Positions 18,161-62,825 of a stretch of 64,000 nucleotides of DNA are shown piece by piece. The notes under the pieces were generated by a model that was not told the origin of the DNA, did not search any database, and was given only the letters and a program-made list of their open reading frames with translations. The stretch spans positions 1 to 64,000 of the forward strand of contig NBAY01000042.1 of assembly GCA_002794775.1 (NCBI GenBank), written 5' to 3'. The DNA is from Porodaedalea pini. Its lineage: Eukaryota; Basidiomycota; Agaricomycetes; Hymenochaetales; Hymenochaetaceae. A program made the position numbers and the translations under genes. Within the stretch, counting starts at the first letter, position 1, and each line of letters starts with the position of its first letter.

Positions 18161-18171
18161 CAACTAAATGC

Positions 18172-23287: not shown

Positions 23288-23467
23288 ACTTGAGGTAGTG
23301 GGCCATTAGGATGGCAAGCTACGATTACTGTTTACTGAATACTAAATAATTCACTAATGAGAATAATGTTTTAGTATAATTTGCAAGCTTTAGTCCTCTC
23401 ATATGGAATGAAAGACACAGAAAACAGGAATTGTAGCTTGCCATCTGAATGGCCCACTACCTCAAGT
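23288..23467. repeat. 180-bp palindromic terminus of element A
   Basis: Starts ACTTGAGGTAGTGGGCCAT and ends with the complement ATGGCCCACTACCTCAAGT. About ten differences separate it from the other two copies. The inner edge interrupts NOT1 directly after the codons for HQLAPL; the outer edge abuts copia gag. Confidence 0.9.
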
Positions 23468-26400
23468 GCAAAGGTGCTAACTGGTGACTGATTGTCACCA
23501 CATTTGCCAAGTTCACCTGAATTTCCTCAATGTGAGCTTCCATGGTCCTATCAGTCTCTGGCGCACTCATCGTCCTGAGAGGGATGACCTGACCATCACT
23601 GGCATGTTCATAGCCACTGATGGGTAGGGCATCAATATCGGGCACCATATCGGGCAGCCTGGCTCAGCCATCAACTCAACCGGTGGGCGACTGCATAGAA
23701 TATTTGCAATTTCAGTAGTATCAAAATCAATGGAAAGTGCCTTGCATAGCACTTCGATCCCAAACATCAAGTTCAGTTTGAGCTCGGCGAAATGGTAGAG
23801 CTCTGCGAGAAGGCTGATGACAGCTATGAGCCACGGGTTTGGTGGGCGGAACACTTTCGACTTTGCTGCAGCTTCAAGAATTTTACACACAAATGGGATC
23901 GCGACTATCAAGCAGTCACTATCCACGCCCTCGACAAGGAACTCCTTGAAAGCAAGATTCTTGTGCTTGATCGGCTTGTCGCGAGCAAGCGTGATCTGCC
24001 CAAGCCACGAGGCAAGGTTTTTGAGGATTGTACGCTCTGCGGTCGAGCTTTTTGTTTTGTCGGAGTTCAGTAACACTGTGGACTTCACAAACGTTTCATG
24101 GAGGATGTACTTCGCCATTGCCTTACTGTCTAGCCCATCGAGGAATCGTAAGTAAAGCTGGTGGTTGTTCAGCTCGGTACTAACATGCTGATCGACAAAG
24201 TAGTTCGCAAGCCAGTGCGAGTACATCTCTTTGAAACACTCCTTCATCTCTGTAAGTTTCGATTCAAAGTTGCTCGGCGCAAGGTTGTTGATAATGAAAA
24301 GAATCTTGTCGGACGTCTCTTCGGGCGGGGTCTCAAAGTCTGCCTCGTCCAAGATGTCTGGCTTGATGGATGTGAAGGTTGGATGAGTGTCGACAAGAGT
24401 CAAGGCCGATGGGAATGCCTGCAGCTGCGCTGCTCCTCCTGCAGTAACTGGTTCTGTGGGGGCAGCGAGAGCTCGACGAATCGTCTCAATAATGTCTGGT
24501 CGCTGCTCGGCGAGATGGAGAATGTTTAGAAGTGCTTCGCACAGGAGCTACCACTCTGGCAGGCGCGATTCGAAGTGTGTCAGCGCTTGCACACCAAATT
24601 TAAAGAGGTTAGTGTCTGGGGGACACTGGAGGGAGTCAATAATGTAGCGGATGGCAGTGCTGAGGGGGATATAGTCAACTAGTTATTGCTGTATGATAGA
24701 TCTGAATAGGTAGCCTGTCATCGCGAGTTCGCGCGGCGGATAGAATGTCTGGAAGAATTTATATTCGTCGAAGAGGAAGTGGAGCATGCAAGAGAAGATT
24801 TCGTGGTCATGAGGATTCGTAGATTCCTTAGTGCGCTGTAGCATGATGATGACTTGGTCGACCGTGATCTGTTCGTCGTACATCTGCTTGAAGATACCGT
24901 CGACCTCTGCTTCAATGTCAGAGAAATAGCTGACGACAGTTAACCCAGGCTCCGAATTTTCGGCACTAGGATTCAGAATCATCAACCGAGGGTGGATCTG
25001 CAGGCAAGCATTTCGCGTCTCCATGCAATATTCCGCGTCTCACTCATCTATAACGTTGGAACTACAAAGGAAAGATTTAAAATATTAGACGGGAGCTTTG
25101 GTCAATGTAAAAGGAAAGAAACGAACTACGTGCGAAGGGAACGCAAGAAGATGGCGATCGTTGAGGGGCTGAGTGCCATCGTCCTGTTCTCCGCCTGTGG
25201 GTCAATTGTCCGGACATTTTTCTCGTTTTGCATCTTGAGCTCCAAGAACACAATAATAGTGTGCAAGAAATCTGCCCCATGCGCCGATACGTTGTCCTGT
25301 AGCCACTTATCGAGTTTATGGTACTCGCGTCGAGATGCAAGAGCAGCGACGTCAAGCGCGAAGACGAAAGGCCATACTTTAAGCAGCGAATCAAGGATCT
25401 TCAGGTCCTGCGCGACATCTAAGATGCGCGTGATGTTCATCGGGTTCTCGTCATAGAACTCGCACAGGGCCGTCGTGAGATACGTCGGCTCGATCTGCCA
25501 TATGCGCATGAAGACGAGCTGGTGATTCGGATGACCACCGAGGAACATTAAAAGCAGCTGTCGTGTATACTCAATCTACAATGCATTACATGGTTTATGG
25601 GAACATAATAAAGATAAGCCACTCATGAAGCAGAAGTAACGATAGATGACTAGTCACTCACAGGAGCCTGAAGCAATCCATATGCACAATGTCCGCACTT
25701 ATCCGGACGGCCTTGTCCAACATCTCCCGTACATAGCTTCTGACATCCTCATTATCCGAATCTCCCAGCCTGACCAAAACCTCAAACAAATCCAGCGAGT
25801 TCCACGTATGACTCTGCACATTAGCAGCCAAAGTCTTGATTGTGGGGCTTGCGGCTGCAATGTCGTCAACACTCACTACGCTCCAACCGGGCAGGCTGAC
25901 GAAGTTGAATGTGTCGCTAGGTAAAGAAAGTAGAGCATCGAGGAGGCGGAGTTAATAGAGAGAATTGTTCCAGTGTGACCAGAAGCCAGCAACGGCAGGT
26001 TTGTCTGCATCGCGGGGAGAATTGATGAGGATAGCAATAAGGAGCTTGAGCGTATTGGTATCGACACCTTGCCGATCAGGCCAATCGAAGGCCTCGATGA
26101 CTTTGCTCCGGTCAAGCTTTGCCCTCTGCATACAAGGCGAGTAAATGATACAGCACGTACAGAAGCAAAAGAGGCTCACAAAGCTACTTAACGCTCTCAC
26201 AAGAGCACCGATATCACACAGTTGGGCACCCTCAATCGTAAGGCGGCTGAGATGTCAACGATTTGCTCGTCCGTCGGAGGGCTCTGATCGGTCATCCCGA
26301 ACCTTGCAAGCAAACCTCTTACGACAGCCGCATCACTCGTGATTTCTGGACCAAATTGGTTTAAGGCCTGGACAAGAGATGTCTGCGGTGGGAGGCTGCG

Positions 26401-27150
26401 AAAGTCACACCAACATTTTGATGAGCTTTCATGCTAACAAAATGGGATAAAACGTACCTGAGATTCTGGAACAACTGCGCCAGAATCGGTACAACCATCT
26501 CAACACCAAATTTTGTCTGCGCAGCAGCAACAAGTGCTTGGCGCTGCGTTGCATCGAGGAGCGGTGCATCCCGCGGCGGGTCAGACAGTAGAGTTTGCAG
26601 CAGTTTTCCCGCCTGCGCGGGTGACAAATCGGCATGGTCAAAGCACGGATGCTGGCACAGCGCGAGCACAGCGTTCTCAAAGTCAACGCGAATGATCATC
26701 GCCGCCTGATCCGCCAACGGCTTTCGCACACCCGTTCCCGGTGTCGATCCCTGCTGGGCTTGAGCGCCAGAAGTGTTTCCCGTGCTCACTCTCACGGCGG
26801 CGATTGACGCAGTGAGGATGAGCCGCTCGAGCGGGCGGAGGCCTATGCGGTCCGCGAAGCGCACGAGGTCGAACGTGCGGAAGATCTCGCCCTCGCGGAA
26901 GCGGTCTGCGAGGAACGGGTCATGCGCGAGTCGCGGCGTCTCCTGTATGAGCAGACGAAACGTGAGCGAGGTGGATGTGTCGAATGCAGTTGGGGCAGCG
27001 GTGCTTGTGAGGCGGGCTTGAGAGTGGACTATGAGGCGGCGGATGAAGTGGAGGTAGGTGTTGAGGCTATGCTGCTCCGATAGCTGCAATACGATAGTAT
27101 GACGAAAGAGGAGGAGACATAGATCGCGTGTGGAAAAGAGAAATGAAAAG
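23468..27150 (-). pseudogene. NOT1: NOT1 (CCR4-NOT scaffold) truncated gene captured in element A
   Basis: NOT1 scaffolds the CCR4-NOT deadenylase complex. Exon pieces in order: 27089-26440 ([39 protein letters not shown]-terminal HEAT region), 26200-25950, 25876-25658, 25548-25126 (GGHPNHQLVFMRIWQIEPTY), 25024-24683 (FSDIEAEVDGIFKQMYDEQ, YPPRELAMTGYLFRSII) and 24403-23640 (the MIF4G-like CAF1-binding region, LTEMKECFKEMYSHWLANYF, KNLASWLGQITLARDKPIKH, NPWLIAVISLLAELYHFAEL). The last coding part reads TMEAHIEEIQVNLANVVTIS and is cut at HQLAPL by the element terminus, so the conserved C-terminal NOT box is missing. The first part of the protein is replaced by RPB1 sequence. Several exons contain small defects. 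Confidence 0.85.
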
Positions 27151-29262
27151 TACTTGGATCAGGATCGTAGTAGATCTCGACCGCCGCTGTAACGGTACGC
27201 AGCGATGTGTACGCAAGTTCTGTTTGCACCGACTTGGTCCTTGTGTCGACAGCAGCAATTTCTGGGTCCAGGTACATGGAGTCTTGATATTCATGGCGAC
27301 GTTGATGATCTCTTTAAGACGCGGCACACCGAGCGTGACGTTTTTACTCGAAACACCAGCGTAATGGAAGGTATTTAGTGTCATCTGCGTCGCCGGCTCA
27401 CCGATCGACTGGGCAGCGAGTGTGCCGCACATCTCGCCCGGATGAGCGACCGACTGGTTGAACTTCGTCTCCACCTCGCCCAAGATCCAGTCAAACGCTT
27501 CTCTGTTGAGATGGAACTCCTCTAGGACTGGGCACGCGGCAAAAGTCGCCCGAAGGTGCATGCGGAATGCAACAGAAGCGTTCTCGGCAGCCTCCTGTAT
27601 TAAAAGGTCGTCGCTGCGCACAACGATGAGGCGGTCCGCCAGCTGCTGCACCTGCTCAATGATGTAAACAGGCTCCAGATCGCTCGGCTTTCTGCGGTCG
27701 ATATGGAAAATCTGCGTTGCGTTCTGCACGATACGGTTCAGGTTGACAGGAAGATAGTGGACAGTGGAATTGTCACGGCCCGGGAAAATGAAATCACGGA
27801 GCAATTTACGATCCTCATGAAGACGGTCGTATTCCTCGTCGAGTTTTTGCTGGAGCTCGAGGGATGAGTCATCGATACCGAATTGCAAAACACCAGGAAG
27901 GGAATCCACCCTTCGGGTCAGTGACGTCGACCCGATAGCGATGTTCGAACTCGCGATCATTGGTACCGAACATTTTGATCATTTGCCGTTCAATAAAAGC
28001 ACCGTCCATACCATCCTCGCCATACACGAATTGAATCAGGTCACCCAGAGAGTTTCGTACAGTCCCGTCGTAGCAGACAGCCACGTCTTCGAGTGCCTTT
28101 ACAAGTCGACGCTGAATGTAACCAGTCTCGGCTGTCTTGACAGCACGCCTCTGGGCTGAAGTCATCCTTCGTAAAGTGAGGTAGTGTGCGATGTCTGAAG
28201 CCAAACGGGATTCGCTTCCCTTCAACGGACTGCTGACCAACACAGACGGTCATCTGCGAGATGTTAATGAACGAACCCTTTGAACCTGCGACAACCATCT
28301 GTTTGACATTGTTGTCCTCCTTCAGGTTCTTCTGAGCGGATTGACCGGAATGGTCACGCGCCAAGTTGAGCTCGCATTCGACTCGACTCTCGAACGACTC
28401 GTGAATAGCCATACCCAGTGCAGCTTTCAGACGGTCTTTAGATGCATCTTCAATGGCCTGCACGACATCCTGCTTCCGCATCTTGATCTGCTCCGTGATG
28501 TACGCCATTGTCTTCTTATCAGCGACCATATCACCAATGTCTATACTGAATCCATTGTGGAACAGCCGGTAATTAACGATCTGCTGGAGACCAGTGAACA
28601 GCGTACGAGTCGCTTTGGGACCTTTTTCGCGGAAGACGACGTGGATCAGACCGCCTTGCGACGCTCCAACCGTCTCTTTCTCCACGATACCAAAGATGAT
28701 CTCGCCGTTTTCAATGAGCATGCCATCGTCAAAAACAGAGCTCGAAGATTTCGGATCAGGCGAGCGATATATGTTTATTCCGCGAGGAATCGTCATGCTA
28801 AGAATCTGTTTGCCCGCCCATAATGGCTTCCGCTTCAAGATCGCCGGCGTCGGAATCGTGCCGTCCCAGTCCCAGAGCAGGATGTTTTGCACCTGCGCCC
28901 AGTCGAGGAAGCTATCCCGCAAAGTGAATTTCCGGACACCGCACAACGTGTCCTGTACGATGCCCATAACAGGTTTGTTCGCCTGCGGCGAGATGATCTG
29001 CTTCGCAACCCATGCAATTTGACTGAGTTCGGCTCTCGTCTCTTCGCTCTCAGGAACGCTAGACGGAGCTGAGAAAGAGATGTAAAGCTAATCTTAAAAG
29101 TGACATACTGCATGTTCATCTCATTGCCATCGAAATCGGCGTCATACGGTGGAGTGACGGAAAGATTTAGACGAAAGGCTAAAATACACTAATCAGCGAC
29201 CATACAATGAGTTGAAGGTGGATAAACACGTACTAGAGTAAGGCATAAATCGCACGCGATGC
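27151..29262 (-). pseudogene. RPB1: RPB1 (RNA polymerase II largest subunit) middle fragment, copy A
   Basis: The fragment begins at HRVRFMPYS, passes an intact GT-AG intron, then [10 protein letters not shown] and the active-site loop. Here the loop reads DADFDGNEMNM instead of [11 protein letters not shown], so the third metal-binding aspartate is lost. A second intact intron follows, then [84 protein letters not shown] and the trigger-loop region [19 protein letters not shown]. About 95 bases around 28147 that encode the bridge-helix entry ([15 protein letters not shown]...) are deleted compared with copy B, shifting the frame. The fragment stops at YYDPDP and runs into NOT1. No clamp core, wall start or CTD is present. 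Confidence 0.9.
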
Positions 29263-31644
29263 CTCGCCGGAGAAGGTTTCTTCTCATCAACTGCAGGGGA
29301 CTTCTTCGTCGCTGTCTTGTTCCCTCCAGCTGTTGCCACAGATGCAGTTGATCGAATTGAATTCGCCGACGGTGACTTTTGAATGACGGGCGTCTTGTTC
29401 GCTGTTGTTTTCGTAGATACTGTAGTAATGGGCGACACCTTCCGTGTGCGCGACGCCGCGTTTACTGTACTAATTGGTGCCGCACTCGTTTCAGAGACGC
29501 GACGCGGCCGTCCTTTCGGTAGCGCAGGCGCCGGCGTTTAGGAGATCTTGAGATTCCGGTGCTGCGCATCGAGGTCGTTGACGTGGTTGAGACTTTCCTC
29601 GACTGAGTAACAGAGTCGCGCGGAGTCATATTCTCGCGGGGCGTCTTGAATGCAGACTCGCGTGTTGAAGCCCCGCTCCTGCTGCTGGACATTGACACAT
29701 TCGAGAGCGAGGATGTCGGTCGCGAGGGCGGATGAGGTGGACGAAGAGTACCTTGCTGGCCTGCAGTGGCGGCATTTCTGCGGATAGTCGATGCATGTGA
29801 ACGAGCAGATGAAACAGAAGCGGCGGCAGATTTTGGTCTTTGCACGGAGACGACGCTTGGGAGTTTTACACTCGTAACACTCGCATTGTCACCTGTGTCT
29901 TTCCCAGTTGTGCGTGGAGAGCGAGAAGCTACATCGGGCCGTCGAGAAACCACAGAAGATGACGTGGTAGAGCGCGCAAGGGACGAGGTCGAGCCCTTTA
30001 GTCGCGGGCTTTCTTGTTCGTCACCCTCCCCATCCACGTCCATACCTGAAGTATACGAGAGTGCACTCGGTGCCCTATGGACGCTTGGACTCGTGCTACG
30101 CGGGGTGGACGGCACAAATTTCGAGTCTGGCCGGCTCTCCTTACGCTCACGCTCCATCGCAGTGGTAAGGCGCAATGACGTTCGGCTAGTCGTCGACCCA
30201 ACGCTGCGCGCTACGCTCCGGACAGATTCGCTAGACGAGGTGGCAGCTGCATCCCCGCGAGCAAGGTTCTTGTTCAGCACGCTCGTACGAAGCGAATGCG
30301 ACGTGCTCATGCTATCGCGCTCAGTGGTGTCTTCGACCCTGCTGAGAGTAGGGCGAAGGCCTGCTCGCGTAAGCGGCCCACGCACCGTGTTGGAGTTGCT
30401 CGTCGTCGGCGTTAGAAGATCTTCGACCGGAATGTTGATCTCTGTAGATTGTTATTAGCAATACCATCGCTGATCTCCTTGATCGCCCAACTTTCCAGCG
30501 CATCGAAGCCACCCTCGTTCCGGATACAGACCCAGCGCCTTCGCATCCAGCGAAGCAGATCCATACGAGTCTGTTCAACTTGCACACGGATGTGGATGAT
30601 GTTTGATAAGAGGGTCTCGCTTGGTTCCGTAGGGTGCTGACGAAGAAGAATTGCACAAACGAGAGTCTGCGAAGGAATGAGCACAACAACAAACCCGATT
30701 ATATTTTAATACTCACCTGATAGAGCATGCCAGCATTCGACTCCACCATGCCCCTCTGCACAGCTTCCATAACCACTCAACTCACTCCCTGTCCTCAATC
30801 CGTCCTAGCCCATCATTCCCCATAATCTCAACCCACTGGCGCTCATTGAAACACTTCTCCACCTCGTTGCAAAGCAGCGCATCCACAAATCCCCCTTGCT
30901 GTCATAACCATTTCTCTCACACCCTCTACCCAAGCGTCGCGCACAGAGTTGAGCTTCACTAAGGCCGCATGCGCAGCGAAGGGCAAAGGAAACGCATTCT
31001 GCGGGAGCGCACGCTTCTTCAGGCCGGTCATCAACCCATCTTTCGTCTTCTGCGGGAGTGTAGCGAAGTCCGGCGTGCACTAGCCCTCTCCGAAAGACCA
31101 ACAAGGGCGCGCCGCGCTCCGCGCTCAAGGTATGTGTTCTGCACGTCTGGACGCACGGAAAGCGGTGTCCAAATCATATGAACGGTTTCTGAAGCTGAGC
31201 GTGCCAGAGCACATGGAGGCCGGGTAGGGGAACTCAACGTCAAGGTTGAAAGAGAGTGCAGATGTCGTCGGCGTTGGAAGAGATGGTGTCGGAGAGGCAG
31301 CGAAAGGAAGTGGGGACGCGATAGGTGCTGGGCAGAATGTGAAATAGCGTGCTTGGAAACTGGGTGGTGCACCAGCATAAATGATAGCTAGTGTTTGTTA
31401 TTCTCAAGGACAGGTGGTAGGTTCTGTGCTCGTGCTCACCTTTATGTCCCCAACCCTCCGAGTCCACGTTGCTGCCTTCGTCCATCGCGTCCTCATCCAG
31501 TAGATCCCAGACGTCATCTGGGAAGCGATCTTTCGCGCGATGAAAGAGCGATTGGAGGTCCTCTTGCCATGCTGTCGTCGACCTCTTCGTTGCCTCGAGC
31601 AGTGCGGGTGGGCAGGCAGGCAGCTGTGACGAGACGGCTACCAT
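29263..31644 (-). pseudogene. BTB-domain protein gene 5' part with serine-rich region, copy A
   Basis: Starts at ATG 31644 (MVAVSSQLPACPPALLEAT). The BTB entry DVWDLLDED...GWGHK is followed by an intron and AGAPPSFQARYFTF, a typical BTB core. A helical region follows (RPDVQNTYLERGARRALVGL, QTLVCAILLRQHPTEPSETL, RVQVEQTRMDLLRWMRRRWV) and then a long Ser/Thr/Arg-rich tail (30385-29240; VLNKNLARGDAAATSSSES, TTSSSVVSRRPDVASRSP). Relative to copy B, the BTB back half (EYLYTGMLSFSNHSYDLDTA to GRWGTGG) has an internal deletion. The tail ends PSPAR and switches into RPB1. The natural gene probably continues into a CAP-Gly domain, as seen in copy B. Its role is unknown; CAP-Gly would suggest microtubule or septum association. 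Confidence 0.65.
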
Positions 31645-31744
31645 GAGAAGCAGTGATGTAGTGTGATTAAGAAAAAAGTAGAGACAGCCCGAGAGAAAAG
31701 TGAAGGAGACAAATCAGCTCAAGTATGCCTCCTGCTGAGGATCA

Positions 31745-32167
31745 CATGAGGGAGCGAAGTGAATGTCTTGGCTGCAGCAAAACAGACTCGTCGACGACCG
31801 CAAGGGTGGAGATCACATGTTGGCACTGTCGTCAACTTTGCTTTCAACTCATTTTTAATTCAACCAGGCCACTTTATTTTACCAAAAATACATAGACAGA
31901 TAGAGAATTGTGTGAAGTTTTTTTACATGGTTCAAGCTTGCGATTTTGATGGTTGAATAAAATTAAATATGCCAATGAAGAAAGTGAGCACTGTACAGCC
32001 ACAAAAGCAGTGAACCCTTCATAGCCACAGCCTGAATTTAGTAGAAAAGGGGTCCAAAATTAACATATATGGTATGCCATCAGCTTATGAAGCTGACAAA
32101 AACCCAAATCGGGCTCCAAAAATTGGCCCACATTAAAAGACGATACTTCGTAAACTCAGTAATCGTA
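31745..32167 (-). repeat. Shared ~420-bp 5' end of element A
   Basis: In minus orientation the end starts TACGATTACTGAGTTTACG and is followed by a stem TCAGCTT-CAT-AAGCTGA. It runs to about ATGAGGGAGCG and is repeated in B (42381-42773) and C (55450-55860). Outside 32167 all three copies diverge at once. Confidence 0.85.
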
Positions 32168-32534
32168 AAAATAGGAAAGAACAATTAAAATCCATCATTC
32201 ATAAACTGGTAGACTTACACACGCAGTGTAGTTACAAGTTCAAGTTCTCTATAAATTACAACAACAGGACTCATACAGGTGTAGTACATTCCCAGGCTGG
32301 CTGGAATCACATACATAATATTATCCGAACGAAGAATAATAGGAACAAAAAGCACACACTTAGAGGCCAATTTACGAACAAATGTTCCATCCAAGTGAAA
32401 CACAAGTAAAAACTTGAGTACAGTTCAAGGAACGGAGGCAAGGAAACAGGGAATTGAAGGTGCCTAAGTCATATGAGCTAAAGCACCAGCAATGCAAAAG
32501 CCACGTACCAGACATCAGTCACAATAATGGATCG
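32168..32534. other. Flank of element A, no gene recognised
   Basis: AT-rich sequence between the element end and the 3' end of the next minus-strand gene; probably its 3' UTR. A 62-codon frame (32403-32215) has no recognisable features. I do not see the missing copia gag here, so element A did not simply split the copia copy to its left. Confidence 0.4.
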
Positions 32535-33613: not shown

Positions 33614-33659
33614 TCCACCTTCAGATTCAATAGACGTTCCCGTATAGTGGTCTGATCAT

Positions 33660-34110: not shown

Positions 34111-34116
34111 TATCTA

Positions 34117-36878: not shown

Positions 36879-37058
36879 ACTTGAGGTAGTGGGCCATTGG
36901 GATGGCAAGCTACGATTACTGTTTACTGAATAGTAAATAATTCACTAATGAGAATAATGTTTTAGTATAACTTTCAAGCTTTAGTCTTCTCATATAAAAT
37001 GAAAGATACAGAAAACAGTAATCATAGCTTGCCATCCCAATGGCCCACTACCTCAAGT
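36879..37058. repeat. 180-bp palindromic terminus of element B
   Basis: Same length as the other two copies and only one base difference seen from copy C (ATCATAG instead of ATCGTAG near the right end). Terminal inverted repeat of about 46 bp. Confidence 0.9.
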
Positions 37059-37219
37059 TGAAATGCAATGCACAACTCATCTGTGTGCTAACATACTCCA
37101 AAATGATTTTTAACTTATTGCATGAGACACAAGAATGCTGTTTGTACAGAAACTCTACACAAATGTACTAACTAAAAAACCGACAGCATTCAAAAGCTGA
37201 CTAAAAAAAGTCTCCAAAA

Positions 37220-38165
37220 GGTGCAATTCAAGAATCCAGAGCAATCCGATTGAGTAGATAAGAGAGGAATATGAACATGCCAACAAGTGATTTCGGTGAT
37301 GAGGGCATCTGCCCAGAGCAAGGAGTGACTAAACATGGGAGTAGGGTAAAAGAAAGAAAGAAAGAAAAAGAAAAGGGGCAGGAATCTGAACTTAAATATG
37401 TTCCAAGGTTCACAAGCCCGAACCGACAGCATCTACAACATACAGCACCTGCTGTGGCCTCACAAAGAGACCTCGATACTCCGCGTTCGACACGTCCGAC
37501 ACCGACGGCGACGCGCTACGGAAACACTTCTTGCGGTCAACGCTGAGCTGCTCCCCCTCACGCTTCGTGCCCTTCCAGCCACTAATAACGCTAGTGCCAT
37601 AGTTATTCGTCACATCAATGCGTTGCCGGCAGGTCATGCATTCGTCGTCGCCCCATTCTGATGCCAAAGTCCAGACGTCAAAGTAGCGCACGCCACCCCA
37701 TGAGCCGTCATTCCACTGGTGGCCCTCGAGCTGATCGTCTGCCTAAGCATCGCCCACAGGCACCTCGACACCGACCCATGGCCCGCTCTCACCCTCAACC
37801 TCGCCGATATAATGGGCAAACACACGGAACCGCTTCCACTTTGAAGTAATGATACATGGAATGCCAATGTCCAATGTAGCACCATGGGGTTCCAGCATGA
37901 CCGTCTCGCCTGCAGACACCGTCTCCCCCACAGGCACTCGATTGAGGGTAATGGTGTCATTCGATTCCTTGTGCCGCAATGTAGCGAGAGTTGTATTTGA
38001 TCCGTTGTCGCTCGATCGCAGAGATCTGTCGTCTGCGATGATGGCATCCGCCCGCCCTTTCCCCTTCCCCTTCCCTTTAATCGTCAATGTACTGCCTGTA
38101 TTGGGAGGATCTTCAAAGTTGATATTTTCCTTAGATGGCATTTTTGGCAATGGCAAAGCTTTCCG
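37220..38165 (-). pseudogene. CAP-Gly domain gene 3' part, copy B
   Basis: The frame contains [20 protein letters not shown], a GKGKGKG linker, then the CAP-Gly domain: ATLDIGIPCIITSKWKRFRV, FAHYIGEVEGESGPWVGVEV and, after an intron or frame change near 37740, GSWGGVRYFDVW. It ends AEYRGLFVRPQQVLYVVDA. CAP-Gly domains bind the C-terminal tails of tubulin and EB proteins. Here it is preceded by RPB1 sequence, with a six-base overlap (AGCTTT) at the junction near 38160 that leaves the two coding frames out of register. I infer, without certainty, that it is the C-terminal end of the BTB gene found in the same element. Confidence 0.7.
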
Positions 38166-40125
38166 CGATACGGCCAGCAACGTAGTTCATCGTAAGTTTC
38201 CTGTCAAGCATCTTCGAGCGACCGAGCTCAAGACAAAGTAGCCATGGCGACTGAAGATGAAGACCCAACTCAGTTTCCTCGTCGGACTTGGCGAAGAATG
38301 CATCAACAAACTCCTTATCCTCCTCAATGATCGTCGGACTTGAATCAGGATCATGGTGGATCTCGACCGCTGCTGTAACGGTACGCAGCGATGTGTACGC
38401 AAGTTCTGTTTGCACCGACTTGGCCCTTGTGTCGACAGCAGCAATTTCTGGGTCCAGGTATATTGTGAGCGACGGAGTCTTGATATTCGCGGCGACGTTA
38501 ACACCGAACGTGACGTTTTTACTCGAAACACCAGCGTAATGGAACGTATTTAGTGTCATCTGCGTCGCCGGCTCACGAATCGACTGGGCAGCGAGTGTGC
38601 CGCACATCTTGCCCGGATGAGCGACCGACTGGTTGAACTTCGTCTCCATCTCGCCCAATACTCAGTCAAATGCTTCTTTGTTGAGATGGAACTCTAGGAC
38701 TGGACGCGCGACAAAAGTCGCCCGAAGGTGCATGCGGAATGCAACAGAAGCGTTCTCGGCAGCCTCCTTTATTAAAAGATCATCGCCGCGCACAACGATG
38801 AGGCGGTCTGCCAGTTGCTGCACCTGCTCAATGATGTAAACCGGCTCCAGATCGCTCGGTTTTCTGCGGTCGATATGGAAAATCTGCGTTGCGTTGTGCA
38901 CGATGCGGTTCAGGTTGACAGGAAGATAGTGGGCAGCGGAACTGTCACGGCCCGGGAAAATGATTTCACGGAGCAATTTACGATCCTCATGAAGACGGTC
39001 GTATTCCTCGTCGAGTCTTTGCCGGAGCTCGAGGGATGAGTCGTCGATACCGACTTGCAAAACACCAGGAAGGAATCCACCCTTCGGGTCAGTGATGTCA
39101 ACCCGATAGCGATGTTCGAACTTGCGATCATTGATACCGAACGTTTTGATCGTTTGCCGTTCAATAAAAGCACCGTCCATACCATCCTCGCCATACACGA
39201 ATTGGATCAGGTCACCCAGAGAGTTTCGTACAGTCCCGTCGTAGCAGACAGTCACGTCTTCGAGTGCCTTTACAAGTCTACGCTGAATGTAACCAGTCTC
39301 GCCCGTCTTGACAGCGGTATCGATCAAACCTTCGCGACCAGCCATAGCGTGGAAGAAAAACTGTTGCGGAGTTAATCCGCGAAGATACGAGTTCTCAATG
39401 AAGCCGCGCGCCTCTGGGCTGAAGTCGTCCTTCGTAAAGTGAGGTGGTGTGCGATGCCTGAAGCCAAACGGGATTTGCTTCCCTTCAACGGACTGCTGAC
39501 CAACACAGACGGACATCTGCGAGACGTTAATGAACGAACCCTTCGAACCCGCGACAACCATCTGTTTGACATTGTTGTCCTCCTTCACGTTCTCTGCGTA
39601 CTGACCGGAGTGGTCGCGCGCCAAGTTGAGCTCGCGTTCGACTCAACTCTCGAACGACTCGCGAATAGTCATACCCAGTGCAGCTTTCAGACGGTCGTTA
39701 GATGCATCTTCTATGGCCTGCACGACATTCTGCTTCCACATCTTGATCTGATCCGTGATGTACGCCATTGTCTTCATCCGCGACCGTATCACCAATGCCT
39801 ATACTGAATCCATTGTGGAACAGCCAGTGATTAACGATCTGCTGGAGACCAGTGAACAGCGTACGAGTCGCCTCGGGACCTTTTTCGTGAAAGTCGACGT
39901 GGATAAGACCGCCTTGCGACGCTCCAACCGTCTTCTTCTCCACGATACCAAAGATGATCTTAAAAGTGACATACTTCATGTTCATCTCATCGCCATCGAA
40001 ATCGGCGTTATACGGTGGAGTGACGGAAAGATTTAGACGAGAGGCTAAAATACACCAATCAGCGACGATACAATGAGTTAAAGGTGGATAAACACGTACT
40101 GGAGTAAGGCATAAATCGCACGCGA
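38166..40125 (-). pseudogene. RPB1: RPB1 fragment, copy B
   Basis: Starts with the same HRVRFMPYS junction and first intron as copy A, and keeps the canonical active-site loop [12 protein letters not shown] deletion then joins the following intron to [17 protein letters not shown] with a 4-base overlap (ATCT) near 39958. It retains the bridge-helix region that copy A lost ([38 protein letters not shown]) and extends further 3' ([26 protein letters not shown] region altered, [32 protein letters not shown]). A TGA replaces the Trp of AFDWILGE near 38664. Other small frame defects occur around 39780. It cannot encode a functional subunit. Confidence 0.9.
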
Positions 40126-42380: not shown

Positions 42381-42773
42381 CGTCGACGACCACAAGGGTG
42401 CCTCCCACTGGTTGGAGATCACATGTTGGCACTGTCGTCAACTTTGCTTTTGACCGATTTTTAATTCAACCAGGCCACTCTATTTCACAAAAAATACATA
42501 TACAGATAGAGAATTGTCTGAAGTTTTTTTACATGCTTCAAGCTAGTGATTTGGATGGTTGAATAAAATTAAATATGTCAATGAAGAAACTGAGCACTGT
42601 ACAGCCACAAAAGCTGTGTATCGCCTCATAGCCACTGCTCAATTTAGCAGAAATGGGGTCCAAAATTAACATATATGGTATACCATCAGCTTATGAAGCT
42701 GACAAAAACCCAAATTGGGGACTTTATCTTTGCCCACAACAAAAGACGATACTTCGTAAACTCAGTAATCGTA
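42381..42773 (-). repeat. Shared ~400-bp 5' end of element B
   Basis: Ends CAGTAATCGTA at 42773 on the plus strand; matches the ends of A and C, including the TCAGCTT/AAGCTGA stem and the GGTCCAAAATTAACATATAT block. Confidence 0.85.
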
Positions 42774-43140
42774 ATATTTTCGGGGAGGATGTGCACTATT
42801 TTTGGGTAGTATTTAACCCAAGCAAATATATCATATGTGCCAGACTTCGTACTCTTGGTGCCTGCTGGCAGCCGATCGAGTACTCTTCAAGGCTACATGT
42901 ACATATTTATTTGTCTAAGGAAGCCATGTGTACATTGTTTTACTCGAATACATACATTTGATATTCATGGTCAATCTTCTTTACATTTAGCGATACGCTT
43001 AACCAGTTCTCTCCATGTTGACATCTGCAGCCTCCTTCTCATTCAACAAGGCCATGATCTTTTATACTTTTTACTCAAAGACAGCATTTGAGTTAAGTCT
43101 CGTCAACTCTTCCTCATCAATTCCCGTGATATCATCCATG
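42774..43140. other. Spacer between element B and the chromovirus
   Basis: No supportable gene. The last five bases, CCATG, are the left copy of the chromovirus target-site duplication. Confidence 0.5.
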
Positions 43141-49396: not shown

Positions 49397-49401
49397 CCAT
49401 G

Positions 49402-54437: not shown

Positions 54438-55449
54438 CTAGGTATCCGAGTCCAACTCAGAGCCGTCTTCTTCCACCAGGTCTTCCTTCATCATGCTATG
54501 TTCGTCGTCATCCTGTCGAAGGATTTCGTCAAGGGGAACAGAAATGTCAGATCGGGGAAAATAAGGAATGAGACGAAAAGCTGCAACCTGAATCCGGGAA
54601 ACCGATCCATCGAGTTCTGAGATGATATACACTCCAGAACGTGTCCTACAGATGACGACGTATGGTCCTAAGTACCAGGCCTTCGTCTTTCGGTCCAACT
54701 CCTTTTCGATCCGGGTGTTCCGTACAAGTACGAGTCGACCGGGCTGGAAATCGTAGTCCTTGATGATGTGCTTATGGACTTCGGCGAACTGTCGAGCGTA
54801 CTTGTGTCGAGCATCTCGAACCAACTGCGCGATCCTATCAAGGTCCGCCGGATGCTTCTGTAACTGGCACGCCCGGGTCACTATCAGTTCCTTGGTATGC
54901 ATCGGGGAATCCAACGGCAGAGTAAGATAATTGGCCTCGGTGAGATCGAAAGGAAGTACCGGCTCGACTCCATGAACCATGTAGTACGGCGACATGCTGG
55001 TCGATTTCTGGATTGTGATACGCTCGGCCCAGAAAACCGAGTAAGCGTGCTCATGCCACTTGGATGCGTTCCCGTCGGCTGCCTTGATCAAGGCTTCCTG
55101 GACGTCGTAATGCCGTCGTTCGACGATCCCGTTGGCCTGAGAATTATATGCCGAGATCTTGATGTGCAAAATGTGGTACCGATCCCGCAACCAATCAAGT
55201 GCAGCGATAAACGGAGTACCATTATTGGTAACGAGTTCGGGACACGCACCATACCGACACAGTAATTCCTGAAAAATGAACTGCCCGATCGTGTGACCAA
55301 TCTGCTTTCGTAACAGTCAGAACTCTGGGTAACTGGACAAGGAGCACCGCGCATGTACGATGTAGTGAAAGCCTCCTGAAGCGGGCATGTGCTTCGTGTC
55401 GATGTGGATCCGGGCGAACAACGTCGGTACGTCCGGTACCAATGGCGGT
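54438..55449 (-). pseudogene. G2 integrase core and C-terminus
   Basis: The minus strand reads PLVPDVPTLFARIHIDTKHM (first catalytic Asp), then GGFHYIVHARCSLSSYPEF, a TGA at 55317-55319, HTIGQFIFQELLCRYG, VTNNGTPFIAALDWL, ISAYNSQANGIVERR (catalytic Glu), YYMVHGVEPVLPFDLTEAN, DFQPGRLVLVRNTRIEKELD and ELDGSVSRIQVAAFRLIPY. The second catalytic Asp (usually VTDNGT) is Asn here, and the TGA breaks the frame, so it is inactive. The 5' edge is exactly the element C insertion point. Confidence 0.8.
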
Positions 55450-55860
55450 TACAATTACTGAGTTTACGAAGTATCGTCTTTTGTTGTGGGCCGAGATAAA
55501 GTCCCCAATTTGGGTTTTTGTCAGCTTTTATAAGCTGATGGTATACCATATATGTTAATTTTGGACCCCATTTCTGCTAAATTGAGCTGTGGCAGCTTTT
55601 GTGGCTGTGCAGTACTCACTTTCTTCATTGGCATATTTAATTTTATTCAACCATCCAAATCGCAACCTTGAACCATGTAAAAAAACTTCAGACAATTATC
55701 TATCTGTATATGTATTTTTTGTAAAATAAAGTGGCCTGGTTGAATTAAAAATCGGTCGAAAGCAAAGTTGACGACAGTGCCAACATGTGATCTCCAACCT
55801 CAGTGCGGTCGTTGACGAGTCTGTTTCGCTGCAAAGACACTCGTTTCGCTCCCTCATAAG
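55450..55860 (+). repeat. Shared ~410-bp 5' end of element C
   Basis: Same sequence as 31745-32167 and 42381-42773 in inverse orientation, up to CTCCCTCATAAG. It includes the stem TCAGCTTTTATAAGCTGA. Confidence 0.85.
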
Positions 55861-55899
55861 TCTACTTAGGCCAAGGGCCCTCCTGAAGCCACATCCGTA

Positions 55900-58584
55900 G
55901 TGTCTTCACCTCGCTCTCAGTTGCCAGCTTCTGCCACTCCTCAGGCTCAGACGCAGATGCACTCGAGAAGGTCTTCGCAACTGGGAGGTTTAAGGATGCA
56001 GTCGGTGTCGGGATTGCGAGCGGGCCAAGGTTCCGCCTTCCAAGATGGGTACGTCATGCATGCCCCATCTTTCCTTGTTCATCCTGTCTAACGCGAATTT
56101 GCAGCAAATCCAATTAGTTTTGGTACGGTAAATGGCTCCGTGAACGATAAAACGACTGCCCCGTCCTCCTCACCGGCGCCTGCCCCACCTCTTGCTAAAT
56201 CAGAGTCGCAGCCTGTACAGTTGTTCGGCTCAATCGAAGCAACGCAAAGCAGCATGCCGACGACAGCAAAGCCGTCTCTGGCATCCGCATCTTCCATCTC
56301 ATCTGCTGCACCGTCATCTTCTGCAGTATCAACGGCGAACACGATGCCTGCCGCAGTGCCGCTCAAGCCTAAGGTCGATGTCTCTGCGTTCTTCCGTGGC
56401 GGCGGAAGCAGCGCAAAAACCTCTTCACCTGTAAATACTTCCTCTCCCGAGAGCATGGCTTCGCCGCCAATGCGTTCGAACACCTCATCTCCTGCTGTGC
56501 TGCCCGCACAATCCCAAAATGCTCCTGGACCAGCTGGCCCCGGTATTCATCCTCACACCCACCCACATCAACAACCTCCGCAGCCATACCCGCAACCTTT
56601 TGTACCCGCAGCTTTGCGAAATCAAGGCGTTGGGAATGGCCTTCGCTCACCGTCTTTCCAGCGCGGCAAATAGACCATCCGTCAACAACGAACCGCCTGG
56701 TGCAAACGGAAACAGCATGCCTTTGCCTCGCCTTGCACCCCCGCAGAATCAACCGCACATCCAGCACCAGCACCAGCACCAGCACCAGCACCAACAGCAG
56801 CCTGCACCCGTCCAAGGCATGCCGCCGCAGATGCAGCCAGTTCCTGGCTGGCCTGGTTACTATGTAAGTTAAATTTAATTTTCTCATATTTTGTTTAGCT
56901 CTAACTATATCGCAGTTCCCCTACATGCCCGGCATGCCGATGCAAGGTGTCCCCAGTGCAGAGCACTATATGCGGTATTCACCGCAAGGCTGGCACATGC
57001 AGAGGGCGCCCGGTACGAACGGGCCGCCGCAGACGCCGCTCGCACATTCCCATGTTCTCCCTGTTTCCTCACCCCGCCAACCGCCACCTCCGCTGCAGGC
57101 ACCAGGGACAAGCACGGGTGCGCTTTGAACACCAATGCGAACGCCTTCATCCCTGGCCAGAGCGCGCCGACGCAGTCGCAGTGTCAAAACAGGATCAAAA
57201 TCAGGGACGCTTCAGGCCATGAGCTTGATCCGAATGGGCTTCGAAAGCAAGGTGGTATGCCGTCGACGCCTTCTACTCCTGCATCTGACATGAATGGATG
57301 ACGTGCAGCAGTTTGGCTAGAGACGGAAGAAGCAAGGTTGAAGCGAATTATGGGGAGCAGGTACAAAAGGTGGAAGAAGAGGAAGAGCGTCAGCGCAAGG
57401 AAGCGGAGGAAAAGCAACGGTTCCACAAGGCAGAGGAAGAGGCCAAAGCTAAAGCAGAGGCGGAGGCTGAGAAGTCAAAGCCTGTTGCACTCGTGATCAA
57501 GTCGAAGAAAGAGAGTGAAGCGTCCTCAACTATATCCGACGTCCCACTTTCTACGTCGCCTGAAACATCCAAGAGACGGCCTATCCCTAGACCGCTCGAC
57601 CTCTCCTCAACTCACAAACCCATCCCTCAACCTCTCCCATCCGCCCTTGCTACCGCCCGCCACATCCAAGATGTTTACCAGGTCCAGTATCCGGAAGGTA
57701 TCAAGAGTCCCAAGCCAGAGCTTAACACGAACGCGAAGGATGGCAAGTTCCGGTTCGTATTTATTGTTTCGCATTCTTTCCATGACTAACAAGCTAACAC
57801 TATATTTCTGCGATTAGCTACGATCGAGACTTCCTTCTCCAATTCATGTCCGTGTGCAACGAAAAGCCGGACAATCTCCCTCCTCTTGAGGCTATCGGTC
57901 TCGGATCATCCGACCAATCGCATTCTATGGGACGGGGTGGCTCTTGACGCCGAGGTGTATCTGGTAGTATGGGCCGGCCATCTTCCACTGCTTCAAGGCA
58001 AGCATCGATTGCGCTTGGCCTCGGTGCTTTGAACGACTTCGGTGGCAAACCTGGTTCAGGCTTTGCGATGGGCAACTTCTCTGCACCGAACAAACTGTCA
58101 AGTGAAGAGCGCTTCATGCGATCGACGTCGATGAGCGATGGGCCCGGTGGCCTTCCATTTGCAGGCGGGCACCCATCGCCTATTGTTCGCTCTTCCAGTC
58201 AGGGCGGTGCGGGCGCTTTGGGCAACAAGCGTACGCGTAACAAACGTGGCGACTCAACACGCAACGAGTCGAACCGTATCAGCGCCTCTGCCAATCAGTT
58301 CAACACGAATGCTGCTTCCTCCGTCGAACCTGGCGCACCGCTCGAGCAGTCTGCGAATCGCTGGGTCGCGGGGAGCGCGTCCAGGCGTGGGGCCTCGAAT
58401 GACGCAGACTCACCTGAGATCGTGGACAAGAAGGTCCGTTCGCTGCTCAACAAGCTCACTATGGAGAAGTTTGAGTCTATCTTAAACCTGATCATTGCGT
58501 GGGCAAACAAGAGAGAGAGCAAGAAGGATGGGCGGACGCTTATTCAGGTCATCCGGCCTGTGTTCGAGAAGGCGACGGATGAGG
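55900..58584 (+). pseudogene. TIF4631: eIF4G 5' two-thirds, captured in element C
   Basis: eIF4G bridges eIF4E, eIF4A and the ribosome. Pieces in order: 55920-56095, 56100-56870 (NPISFGTVNGSVNDKT, Ser/Pro/Gln-rich region), 56915-57300 and a charged coiled coil (57330-57480; EEEERQRKEAEEKQRFHKAE). Then RPIPRPLDLSSTHKPIPQP, YPEGIKSPKPELNTNAKDG and the eIF4E-binding motif YDRDFLLQF (57820-57850) after an intron. RNA-binding-like [10 protein letters not shown] follows, and finally the MIF4G start, [40 protein letters not shown]. There it stops and PRP8 sequence follows in frame. Minor frame defects occur in the 5' half. The gene symbol follows the yeast homologue. Confidence 0.8.
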
Positions 58585-61500
58585 CGGCTGGAGTAACCCT
58601 GTCTCCTCTCATGGTTTTCAACCAAAGAATGTGCCTCATTTCTCACGAAGACGAAATCTTCGGACCCAACGGCGCGGACGAGGATGAATTCGAGCTACCA
58701 GATGAAGTTGAGCCATTCCTCTCGGATAAGGATTTGGAGAACGAGAGCACTGCGGACGGTATTGCATTATGGCGGGCGCCGGCGCCTTACAGTCGCCGCT
58801 CGGGACACATGCACCGCGCGCAAGATGTACCATTGGTGAAGAATTGGTATTTGGAGCACTGCTCACCGAACCAGCCTGTAAAGGTTCGCATGTCGTACCA
58901 GAAGCTACCCAAGTGCTTTGTTCTCAACGAGCTGAAGACGAGGCCGGAGAAGCCGATGACGAAAAAGAACCTGTTCCGTCAGTTGAAGGCGGTGAAGTTT
59001 TTCCGGACCACAAAGCTGGACTGGGTGGAGGCTGGTTTGCAAGTGTGCAGGCAAGGATACAACATGCTGAACTTGCTCGTCCGTCGCAAGGTATGATCGT
59101 TGGGAAAGCTGCGTTACATCATTCTGACTTTCAATCCTTCTAGAACTTGAATTACCTTCATCTCGATTACAACATGAATCTGAAGCCAGTAAAGACGCTC
59201 ACGACGAAGGAACGCAAAAAGTCTCGGCTTGGAAATGCATTCCATTTGTGCCGTGAAATTCTTCGCCTCACGAAGCTCGTTGTCGATGTGCACGTCCAAT
59301 TCCGGCTTGGCAATGTCGATGCCTTCCAACTGGCGGATGCATTGCAGTATATCTTCGCACATATCGGTGCGTTCAGCGGCATGTATCGTTACCAGTAAAA
59401 ACTTATGCGTCAGGTCCGGATGTGCAAAGGTCTCAAGCATCTGATCTACTATCGGGACCTGTTGGTAAGGGCCCAGGCTGTGGGTTTGGGGCTCCAGGTT
59501 GGCGGGTGCGGCTCTTCTTCATGCGTGGAATTGTACCGCTGCCTGAGCACTGGCTCGGAAACTTGCTTGCGCGTCAGTTCGAGGGTCTCAACAGCGAGGG
59601 TCGCAAAGACGGTCACGAAACAGCGTGTCGAATTGCACTATGACTTGTAATTACGCGCTGCCGTGATGCACGATATTCTTGATATGATACCGGAGTTGAT
59701 CAAGCAGAACAAGGTGAAGACTATCTTGCAGCACTTGACGGAAGCGTGGCGCTGCCGCAAGGCAAACAGTATGTCGTTTGGTTGAATCTGGACTTTGCGT
59801 ACTAAGCCTTATTCTACAGCTCCATGGAAGGTCCCGGGCATGCCGACTGCAATCGAGAACACCACCTTGCGGTACATCAAGAGCAAGGCGGATTGGTGGT
59901 GCTCGGTTGCACACTACAATCGTGAGTGTATCAGGCGCGGTGCGACTGTCGACAAGGCTGTGGTCAAGAAGAACTTGGGGCGTCTTACTTGACTGTACTT
60001 GAAAGCTAAGCAGGAACATCAGCATGGTTACCTCAAAGATGTCCTTACATTAGCGCTGAGGAGGCCGTTGCGATCTACACATCGACGGACCAGTGGCTTG
60101 AGAGTCGGAAATTTGCTCCCATCCCATTCCCGTAAGATTCAATTAACTACGTCTTTCAGTAACTCTCACTGATGTTTCCATACAGTCCCCTTTCGTACAA
60201 GCATGACGCGTACAGCGTCAAAGGTCGTCTTAACGAATCTCAGCGTGAGGAGCTTGCTCTCATTGAGCAAGTGTATGACAATCCACACGAATGTATGTTC
60301 TTTTTCTAATTGGTCGTAGGGTGTAGCTAATTGATTCGCGTGCTGGTCTGTCTAGGATCAAGCATCTCTTGCTCGTTTAACGAGCCTTCAAAGAGGCAGG
60401 CATCGAGTTCTTCGACACATATGACAAGCTCGCATATCTTGACCAATTCTTATCCTTCGAGGCTGACAAGTGCGGACACCGAACCTCCTCCCATTCTAGT
60501 GTACAAGTGGTGTCAGGGTATGAATAACTTGATGGATATCTGGGAGACGAGCGAGGGCGAATGCGTAGTGATGATGGAGACCGTACTTTCGAAGGTCTAC
60601 GAAAAGATTGACCTGACCCTTCTCAACCGTCTGCTTCGTCTTATTCTCGATCATAGTCTTGCGGACTATATCACAGCGAATAATAACTGTGTTCTCACCT
60701 ACAAAGATATGGCACATACGAACACATACGGGATGATCCGTGGTCTGCAGTTCTCTGCCTTTGTCTTGCAATACTATGATCTTGTCCTCGAACTTCTCAT
60801 CCTGGGCTTGCAATGCGCAAGTGAAATGGCAGGTCCCCCACAACTGCCCAACAATTCCCTGCAGTACCGTGATTCTGCGACCGAGACATGCCATTCAGTC
60901 CGTCTCTATTCTCGTTATGTTGATCGTTTGTATATTTTATTCCGCTTCACCGCCGAGGAATCACGCGACCTTATACAATGTTACCTCAACGCGAATCCTA
61001 TTGTGTATAACAACAAGAGATGTTGGCCGCGGGATTGCCGTATGCGCCTGATCAAGCACGACGTCAATCTAGGTCGAGCTGTGTTCTGGAACGTGAAGCA
61101 GAGCCTGCCTCGTTCTTTGACAACGATTGAATGGGAAGATACATTTGTTAGTGTCTACTCCAAAAACGACCCTCAGTTACTCTTCTCAATGGGCGGCTTC
61201 GAGGTGTGCATTCTGCCGAAGATTCGGACGATGAGTGGAGAGCAGTTGTCGCTCAAGGACGGGGCGTGGAACTTGACCAACGAGCAGTTGAAGGAGCGTA
61301 GTGCACAAGCCTTCCTCCGCGTCTCCGACGAAGGTAAGAATATTAAAGTTTCCATGGAATATGTAACGCTGAAGAATTTCATAGGTGTTCAACAGTTAAA
61401 CAACCGTATCCGCCAGGTCCTCATGAGCTCAGGCTCTACCAACTTTTCCAAGATTGTCAACAAATGGAACACTGCGATCATCGGTCTAATGACTTACTAT

Positions 61501-62645
61501 CGAGAGGCCGTCATCCACACGAACGAGCTGCTTGATGCTTTGGTGAAGGCTGAGAACAAAATTCAGACCCGTGTCGAGATTGGCTTGAACAGTAAGATGC
61601 CTTCGCGTTTCCCTTCGGTCATCTTCTACACCCCCAAAGTAAACATCGCACCTCTTATGTATATCCGCAACGGCATGCCGGGTAAGCATGTCCATTTCGC
61701 TGTAGAGAAATGCGCTCAGCTGTTCATCCTTATCCAGATCCGCTCAAGGTCCATCTTCTCGAATTCCCAAACATTGTCATTAAATGAAGTGAGCTGCGAT
61801 TGTCGTTCCAAGCATGTATGAAGATGGGGAAGTTTGGCGACCTCATTCTTGTAAGTATATCCGTCGTTAGAGGCTGGCCTGCTGCTCAACTTGTTCCGTA
61901 GTGCGCAATGCAACCCCAGATGGTGCTCTTCAACCTTTACGGTGTGAGTTATCTTTTTTTCGTACGAGGACGACCTTTTAATATTTCGCTATAGATGATT
62001 GGCTGAAGTCAATCTCAAGTTACATGGCATTTTCGCGTCTCATCCTCCTCCTGTGTGGTTTGCATGTAAACAATGAGAGGGCTAAGATCATCTTACGCCC
62101 TGAGAAGTCGACAATCACAGAGCCGCGCTTTGTCTGGCCAACGCTGTCTGAGGATGACTGGATTAAGGTTGAAGTGGCTTTGAAGGATCCCATGCTTGCT
62201 GTATGTTGTAGTACCTTGCTCTATTGCTTTGTATCCATCTGATCCATTCTTTAAAGGATTTTGGCAAGCGGAACAGCGTGAACATCGCTTCTCTGACAGC
62301 CAGCGAAATTCGCGACATTATTCTTGGCCAGGAGATTGCTGCACCGTCTGTGCAGCGTCAGAAAATGGCTGAGCTCGAGAAAAGCACGGAAGCTCGGGCA
62401 CAAGTCACTACTGTTCAAACGTGAAGTTTCTTGACTGTCAGTATGTTGATCAAGCCCTTACGACATACATTTTTCACAACAAAACCACGAACATTCATGG
62501 TGATGCAATTCAGACTGTCACCAGTAAGTTTAATTGGAATGTCACTTGTTTGTCAATCTTCTGATGTTTGTCTCTTTCAGCGACCAACTATGAACAGCAG
62601 GTCTTTTCAAGCAAGTCTGACTGGCGCGTTCGTGCTATCTCGGCT
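58585..62645 (+). pseudogene. PRP8: PRP8 (U5 snRNP core splicing factor) fragment, captured in element C
   Basis: PRP8 forms the spliceosome catalytic scaffold. From 58600: [54 protein letters not shown], a clean intron 59092-59143, [19 protein letters not shown], then [58 protein letters not shown] (RT-like palm) and [20 protein letters not shown] up to [13 protein letters not shown] large internal deletion then removes the rest of the thumb/linker and endonuclease-like parts. The sequence resumes near [15 protein letters not shown] and [15 protein letters not shown], and ends KSDWRVRAISA just before the C-terminal MPN domain, where the element terminus begins. Several frameshifts, for example near 60300-60480 and 61770-62030. 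Confidence 0.9.
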
Positions 62646-62825
62646 ACTTGAGGTAGTGGGCCATTGGGATGGCAAGCTACGATTACTGTTTACTGAATAG
62701 TAAATAATTCACTAATGAGAATAATGTTTTAGTATAACTTTCAAGCTTTAGTCTTCTCATATAAAATGAAAGATACAGAAAACAGTAATCGTAGCTTGCC
62801 ATCCCAATGGCCCACTACCTCAAGT
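62646..62825. repeat. 180-bp palindromic terminus of element C
   Basis: Starts ACTTGAGGTAGTGGGCCAT; the inverted repeat is perfect for about 46 bp. The outer arm reads CAGTAATCGTA, then GCTT, the hairpin GCCAT-CCCA-ATGGC, then CCACTACCTCAAG(T). The inner arm is the mirror image. The outer edge abuts G2 integrase, the inner edge PRP8. Confidence 0.9.

Follow-up and report, generated by a model that had tools for sequence, protein, structure and literature searches.

What kind of element would carry pieces of essential host genes between the same two ends three times within 40 kb of a fungal contig? The question is raised by the first 64,000 nucleotides of contig NBAY01000042.1 of the basidiomycete Porodaedalea pini (assembly GCA_002794775.1; this whole stretch is called the window), in which a preliminary description, made from the letters alone, had singled out three related loci, here elements A, B and C, and had taken them for a gene-capturing transposon family of a kind not described in fungi. 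Our survey of the window and of the genome upholds the family, on the pairing of its ends and the varied cargo between them, and does not uphold the novelty of the class: Helitron Rep and helicase genes are found in copies that share an end and cargo with these loci, and in one case both ends. By sequence comparison, the best explanation of the whole, and a probable one, takes A, B and C for non-autonomous members of a single Helitron family of Helitron2 type. Throughout, C with a number denotes a contig and L with a number a stretch fetched from the genome.

Self-comparison of the window by alignment showed that A, B and C have two ends in common, a palindrome of 180 bp, termed Pal, and an end of ~365 bp, termed E (Table 1). 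Identity among the three is 92.8-99.4% for Pal and ~87-91% for E, so the claim of shared ends stands, with a correction of orientation: element C is reversed relative to A and B, yet its Pal has the same orientation in the window as theirs, because Pal is nearly palindromic and occurs both ways round in the family. Pal is an imperfect palindrome of 180 bp whose outer parts are mutual inverted copies (ACTTGAGGTAGTGGGCCATT..), and the outer terminus of E reads ..AAACTCAGTAATCGTAA. Between B and C, Pal is 99% identical and flipped relative to the element, and E is only 91% identical; the cargo common to A and B is 91-93% identical. Pfam and PDB searches found the genes that had been named, NOT1 and RPB1 in A, RPB1 in B, and eIF4G and PRP8 in C, and NOT1 in A and PRP8 in C are both cut at Pal, as had been stated. 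The CAP-Gly gene proposed for B is limited to sub-threshold matches (Pfam E values of 0.0059 and 0.017, below the curated cut-off), and the BTB domain proposed for A and B was not found in the subset of their listed open reading frames (ORFs) that was scanned. Nor did we see a host gypsy element resuming after C: its right flank has weak gypsy similarity and its left flank no match to the gypsy of the window.

To follow the ends through the genome (53.27 Mb, 201 contigs), we searched for a 20-bp Pal tip with at most 2 mismatches and a 25-bp E tip with at most 3 mismatches, using the reversed patterns as controls. The Pal tip, which marks half-sites, occurs 206 times and the E tip 123 times; the reversed controls gave 0, so the recurrence is not due to chance. 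All pairing counts rest on the matches listed, that is, the first 100 places of each tip. On contigs 1-54 these comprise 61 Pal sites and 62 E ends, and a consistently oriented E lies within 15 kb of Pal on one side at 39 sites and on both sides at 3 (42 of 61 in all); pairing of this kind was the check that the preliminary description itself had proposed. The nearest E within 10 kb is consistently oriented in 39 cases and inconsistently in 13, and across all contigs (78 Pal sites and 104 E ends listed) Pal lies within 10 kb of E on its inner side 48 times and on its outer side 20 times. Six copies, L001-L006, are 7722-7729 bp long and start and stop at the same bases in several different flanks, so the termini are fixed. 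Five of the six are 99.1-99.95% identical to L001, and it is this near identity, rather than three copies per 40 kb, that supports the high activity ascribed to the family. The cargo mixtures vary among copies at different places, contrary to what a single segmental duplication with the same cargo, named earlier as a refutation, would give.

The class of the family follows from the proteins encoded by its larger copies. Helitron_like_N (PF14214) has 10 matches at 8 loci in the genome, and at five of these Rep loci (C79, C54, C62, C128 and C37) a listed E end lies 3' of Rep on the same strand, ~12-19 kb away. The stretch C79:17098-29591 holds Pal, Rep, helicase, cargo and E together; C54 agrees with it in Rep, cargo and E, and no Pal is recognisable within the stretch fetched there. 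The Rep frame of L023 contains DUF6570 and Helitron_like_N with an HLH stretch (LTLHLHLLLW) and CYVTDYITK, which we take to be an HUH nuclease motif and two catalytic tyrosines, as predicted from sequence. A PIF1 helicase match (PF05970; L023:6513-9083) follows 3' of Rep on the same strand, interrupted and not one open frame, and the helicase frame of C79 contains GMGGIGKS, presumably a helicase motif. The family is a Helitron, since copies that share its ends and cargo code for a Helitron Rep together with a PIF1 helicase. Among the relatives (120 of 518 listed), the named ones are mushroom-forming fungi, for instance Piloderma, Athelia, Armillaria and Coprinopsis. A parvovirus-like rolling-hairpin element, an idea that came from the two orientations of Pal, was rejected because Pal keeps a single orientation in all six ~7.72-kb copies and the encoded enzyme is a Helitron Rep.

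Within the Helitrons the family appears non-canonical and Helitron2-like, a type assigned from the termini. The Helitron2-type FoHeli elements of Fusarium oxysporum are described as having asymmetric terminal inverted repeats with one copy 20-40 bp internal (PMC5148889). The present family shares this trait, the 3' copy being the internal one: an 11-bp inverted repeat, TACGATTACTG, starts at base 2 of the E terminus and recurs 32 bp inside Pal. Most likely, E (5'-TTACGATTACTGAG..) is the 5' start and Pal, ending ..CTCAAG-3', the 3' terminus. First, the repeat is terminal at E and internal at Pal, as in the fungal Helitron2 described in PMC5148889. Second, T flanks Pal, and canonical Helitrons are reported to insert between A and T (PMC4778049). 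Several observations weigh against the explanation as a whole. Rep runs from Pal to E, which by itself favours the reverse polarity; E as the 5' end is tenable despite the antisense Rep because two of the five FoHeli subgroups are reported to have ORFs opposite to a third (PMC5148889). The ends, TTACGATTACTG.. and ..CTCAAG, lack the canonical Helitron1 features (5'-TC, CTRR-3' and a short 3' hairpin), and the hairpin at E is weak: fold values computed without a shuffled control are -55.6 and -61.6 (strong) for Pal and -6.2 for the first 60 bases of E. The Rep frame is interrupted in C54 and contains a stop in C79, so neither of the two fetched Rep copies is intact, and 19 of the 61 listed Pal sites are without a listed E end. 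The extra endonuclease domain typical of Helentrons had no match in the three Rep/helicase frames scanned, which are themselves broken.

What the elements carry includes DNA of three host loci, for which we found the parents: PRP8 on C12, NOT1 on C3 and RPB1 on C5. RPB1, PRP8 or NOT1 sequence is present in 19 of the 22 elements examined, a set chosen by paired ends and not at random. The NOT1 tract of A comprises 3.3 kb of the locus, 94.2% identical to and colinear with C3:1908500-1917500. The PRP8 tract of L009-L012 (~5.5 kb, 93-96% identical to C12) has its limits 320 bp beyond the first long frame of PRP8 and on the far side of the U6-binding frame, and RPB1 in A, B, L001-L006, L008 and L013-L015 is 90-94.5% identical to C5:1012000-1018500. 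Rpb1-domain matches on C18 and C8 were rejected as parents, having no match to the cargo. Protein searches further identified eIF4G, with a possible parent on C33, and a DNF-type flippase. The earlier statement that the elements hold only fragments of essential host genes was borne out only for the named genes; the relatives L015 and L016 also hold pieces of Rep.

RPB1, PRP8 and NOT1 were captured as genomic DNA. L007 and L011 retain a PRP8 intron (GT..AG, L025 5483-5531). Six aligned cargo pieces, checked for gaps of at least 10 bases, showed no intron-like loss; the gaps are not recognisable introns, and those that recur against the parents are coding deletions, so intron loss in the cargo was rejected. 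All mapped RPB1, PRP8 and NOT1 blocks in the fetched elements run in one sense, from E to Pal and against the direction of Rep, and eIF4G in C and the flippase in L001 have the same sense by ORF strand. Some cuts on the E side are common to copies with differing cuts on the Pal side, namely PRP8 at L025 7162 (L007, L009-L013) and RPB1 at L043 2208 (A, B, L014, L015); a general rule of fixed E-side and variable Pal-side cuts was dropped, since other copies show other E-side cuts. L014 contains another part of the NOT1 locus (L026 5862-6943), so that NOT1 may stem from a single ~7-kb capture or from two. The order of PRP8 and RPB1 in L001 and L013 differs from that in L014 and L015, and the mosaics therefore arose in several steps. 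In 29 comparisons with the parental frames, PRP8 cargo shows stops 17 times and is frequently frameshifted, and is for this reason decaying; replacement changes exceed silent ones in 27 of the 29 by a crude codon count, not a ratio of nonsynonymous to synonymous rates (dN/dS). Selection on PRP8 cargo, considered as a candidate, was rejected because neither the stops nor the replacement excess gives a sign of constraint.

How the borders of the cargo are set is best approached from the insertion sites. Two clean empty sites were found, one by comparing the insertion of L009 with the uncut flank of L011 (..CAGGT A TGCAC..), the other at a 7.5-kb element (C75:162784-170297) within a copia retrotransposon (..GCTTG A AGTGC..). 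Neither shows a target duplication, one A is shared, and the target read from E to Pal is mostly purine^T; the family thus inserts at purine^T without target duplication. For the 94 Pal ends of the window and of the fetched loci we then sought homologues that lack the cut. One was available for 37 junction classes, from which we left out five inside other palindromes, a duplicate class, and L014, for which there is only a deleted Pal to compare. Of the 30 Pal junction classes that remain, 28 have a homologue with T exactly at the cut; the preceding base is G in 15 of them, A in 11 and T in 2. By our own reading of class type, this holds for all of the roughly eight host flanks (8/8) and for 20 of the 22 classes that border cargo, element interior or unclear sequence. 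On the E side the complementary A was found in 11 of 11 classes, L042 being mixed (3 of 4 homologues). Judged by this junction rule, the border between Pal and cargo resembles the relic of an insertion. An observation on its own is a palindrome (C23:461620-461797, L051) that lies ~24 bp inside the E of another copy, at G^T, and replaces that end.

From the junction rule, which is observed, we infer a landing process that would run as follows. Genomic stretches of host genes, captured in the E-to-Pal sense, would then be trimmed, fused and multiplied by transposition. A palindrome landing at purine^T inside cargo or a captured gene would set a new boundary on the Pal side; because it reads nearly alike both ways, it could end a unit approached from either side, and the DNA between an E end and the landed palindrome would become a new element. 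Tentatively, and with somewhat less than even confidence, we suggest that Pal serves as a two-faced terminator and capture engine, palindromes landing in elements and captured genes continuing to create gene-bearing units. Of the 21 elements whose Pal is regular (A, B, C and 18 fetched ones, L020 having been set aside), 14 have it in one orientation and 7 in the other. Such flips would follow from two-way use or from hairpin opening during replication, and are rare relative to copying, since all six ~7.72-kb copies have one orientation.

The proposed two-faced use of Pal has evidence against it as well. L007 and L049 are exceptions to the T rule, T is not in every homologue for L013, L016 and L009 (for L013, in the closest alone), and a few junction classes rest on homologues of 26-47 bp. 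The single sense of the cargo perhaps reflects only about six independent genes or capture events and carries modest weight. Among the matches listed there are five head-to-head composites that share one Pal (C3, C40, C54, C75 and C105), and the cut cargo, which under nested insertion should resume beyond the partner E, did not do so in C3, C75 and C54 as far as it could be tested. Simple nested insertion was accordingly rejected as the origin of the composites, with recombination through palindromes or self-insertion as further candidates. A search for founder junctions among 44 E flanks recovered only the known L009 site. The idea that C79 is a full A-like element paired with a Rep arm was also rejected, the E expected near C79:8396 being absent.

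The main competitor for the origin of the borders is classical 3' read-through, in which replication overruns the 3' end, copies adjacent host DNA and stops at a new terminator. Such capture was demonstrated experimentally for bat Helraiser, according to PMC4778049, and the long tracts of PRP8 in L009-L012 (5.5 kb) and NOT1 in A (3.3 kb) would suit it. However, the boundaries examined carry the same 180-bp Pal and not a de novo terminator, the insertion-target T stands at 28 of 30 Pal junction classes, and in Rep-bearing copies the cargo lies between Rep and E rather than beyond Pal. We regard read-through as unlikely.

Segmental duplication with ectopic recombination between repeats, which would explain the spread with no transposition at all, seems improbable, even though several observations speak for it. 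L001, L005, L002, L003 and L006 have flanks in common on one side only, forming a chain (X/R1, Y/R1, Y/R2, Z/R2, Z/R3) that we read as a trace of recombination or break-induced copying through elements; B, C105 and C75 have E flanks in common; and the flanks of A and L014 are not contiguous in an uncut relative. The chain and the common E flanks show that recombination between copies, or duplication, is common in the family. Matching Rpb1-family matches on a large and a small contig (C8:1150038 and C153:20010) suggest unresolved haplotype duplicates in the assembly, which may add to flank sharing. Against duplication alone, neither immediate flank of L004, L008 or L009 matches those of the other fetched copies, and recombination reshuffles copies and makes no exact insertions such as the two clean empty sites.

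Very improbable is a cut-and-paste transposon or miniature inverted-repeat transposable element (MITE), with Pal as a mobile palindrome and E as an unrelated repeat. Pal alone does resemble a 180-bp MITE, and 19 of the 61 listed Pal sites have no listed E within 15 kb; yet six near-identical copies are bordered by both ends, the clean empty sites span both ends without target duplication, and one Rep copy has both. Moreover, of 14 stretches fetched, 12 contain E-less palindromes and cover 13 of the 19 E-less sites. In 11 of these 12, family sequence or sequence shared with other Pal neighbours borders Pal on a side (L052 lies outside this analysis), for which the solo Pal as an independent MITE was rejected; L055, one of the two other stretches, has no match on either side of Pal. 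Retrotransposed mRNA copies gathered by a retroelement, to which housekeeping coding sequence with all mapped pieces in one sense might point, can practically be dismissed, as the cargo is colinear with genomic loci, its deletions lie in coding sequence and not in introns, and the kept intron already refutes the idea for PRP8.

Set beside known systems, the Helitron2-like family of P. pini shares with FoHeli asymmetric repeats and the lack of target duplication; FoHeli also has terminal hairpins, matched here by a strong fold at Pal and a weak one at E, and its ORFs are opposite in two subgroups to those of a third (PMC5148889). It differs in that FoHeli is described with short hairpins, whereas here the whole 180-bp end is palindromic and found in both orientations, and in that capture is minor there (27 putative captures, with no evidence of an important role for capture in that account), whereas 19 of 22 elements, picked by paired ends, have RPB1, PRP8 or NOT1 here. 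HELPO1 and HELPO2 of Pleurotus ostreatus are likewise basidiomycete elements with RepHel and without target duplication, but are reported to have a 3' CT[A/T]G end, and capture of host genes or of pieces of them is denied by their authors; HELPO1 has extra genes of unknown origin downstream of Rep (PMC4289320). Maize gene-capturing Helitrons are similar in the stepwise capture of multiple fragments and in nested Helitrons yielding new elements, which are described there with several 3' termini and not with one two-way palindrome (PMC3288121). Bat Helraiser and Helibat resemble the family in a 3' palindromic terminator and DNA-level capture, and differ in that the palindrome there is 19 bp long and capture proceeds by read-through to de novo ends (PMC4778049). 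A 2025 account describes Helitrons carrying a TET/JBP gene in several fungi (PMC12730594). In the open-licence literature, subscription papers and Repbase lying outside that scope, we found no description of a 180-bp palindromic end in two orientations.

The Helitron class is thus known, and what is new is the scale of capture in a fungus and a palindromic end with a T rule at cargo junctions. Host-gene capture by fungal Helitrons was reported before as absent (PMC4289320) or minor (PMC5148889), and here it is large-scale. One 53-Mb genome holds the parental genes, exact ends, the target rule and Rep-bearing copies; with all components in one genome, the setting of captured-gene borders is therefore testable by strain comparison. 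The many pieces of PRP8, RPB1 and NOT1 can also lead gene prediction astray, and likewise searches for marker genes, RPB1 being widely used as a marker in fungi.

Table 1. Features of elements A, B and C in the 64-kb window (positions count from the first nucleotide of the window).
Feature	Position	Strand	Remarks
Element A	23288..32168	+	8881 bp, non-autonomous; Pal left, E right
Pal of A	23288..23467	.	180 bp; inverted relative to Pal of L001
NOT1-locus genomic DNA in A	23465..26778	-	includes CAF1-binding region; 94.2% to C3:1908500-1917500; cut at Pal
RPB1 fragment of A	27150..29261	-	two blocks, 93-94% to parent C5:1012000-1018500
E end of A	31804..32168	+	terminus ..CTCAGTAATCGTAA
Element B	36879..42774	+	5896 bp, non-autonomous
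Pal of B	36879..37058	.	99% to Pal of C; opposite orientation relative to element
Possible CAP-Gly gene fragment in B	37413..38186	-	Pfam matches sub-threshold, in two frames
RPB1 fragment of B	38156..40127	-	92.6-93.6% to parent; E-side cut at L043 2208, as in A, L014 and L015
E end of B	42410..42774	+	
Element C	55449..62825	-	7377 bp, reversed (E left, Pal right)
E end of C	55449..55799	-	
eIF4G fragment in C	57289..57786	+	
Chimeric open frame in C	57948..59093	+	382 aa, eIF4G fused to PRP8
PRP8-locus fragment of C	58594..62647	+	internal deletions; blocks 91-94% to parent on C12; cut at Pal
Pal of C	62646..62825	.	

Other sequences were noted at or near the family ends. In the E-side flank of B, a gypsy retrotransposon with 99.8% identical long terminal repeats is inserted (43141-49396), and the sequence that it splits is unbroken in C105 and C75. 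Pairs of E ends lie tail to tail, 0.6-1.3 kb apart with unrelated sequence between them, in L027, L028, L029 and L030 (C75, C77, C5 and C45); in the C75 pair the intervening gap is a stretch of copia. One palindrome, at C3:1606828-1608085 (L041), contains an element of ~1.06 kb whose inverted arms of ~490 bp are 98% identical in L041; the same element occurs near other ends, just outside position 404270 of C40 (L039) and in L019. Elsewhere in the window (9577-18161), a tnp2-type (PF02992) transposase frame at 13214-15703 lies between two tandem arrays in inverted orientation (9577-12158 and 16203-18161), whose units of ~290-350 bp are degenerate polyubiquitin repeats; this locus is possibly a second transposon that uses a host gene as subterminal repeats.

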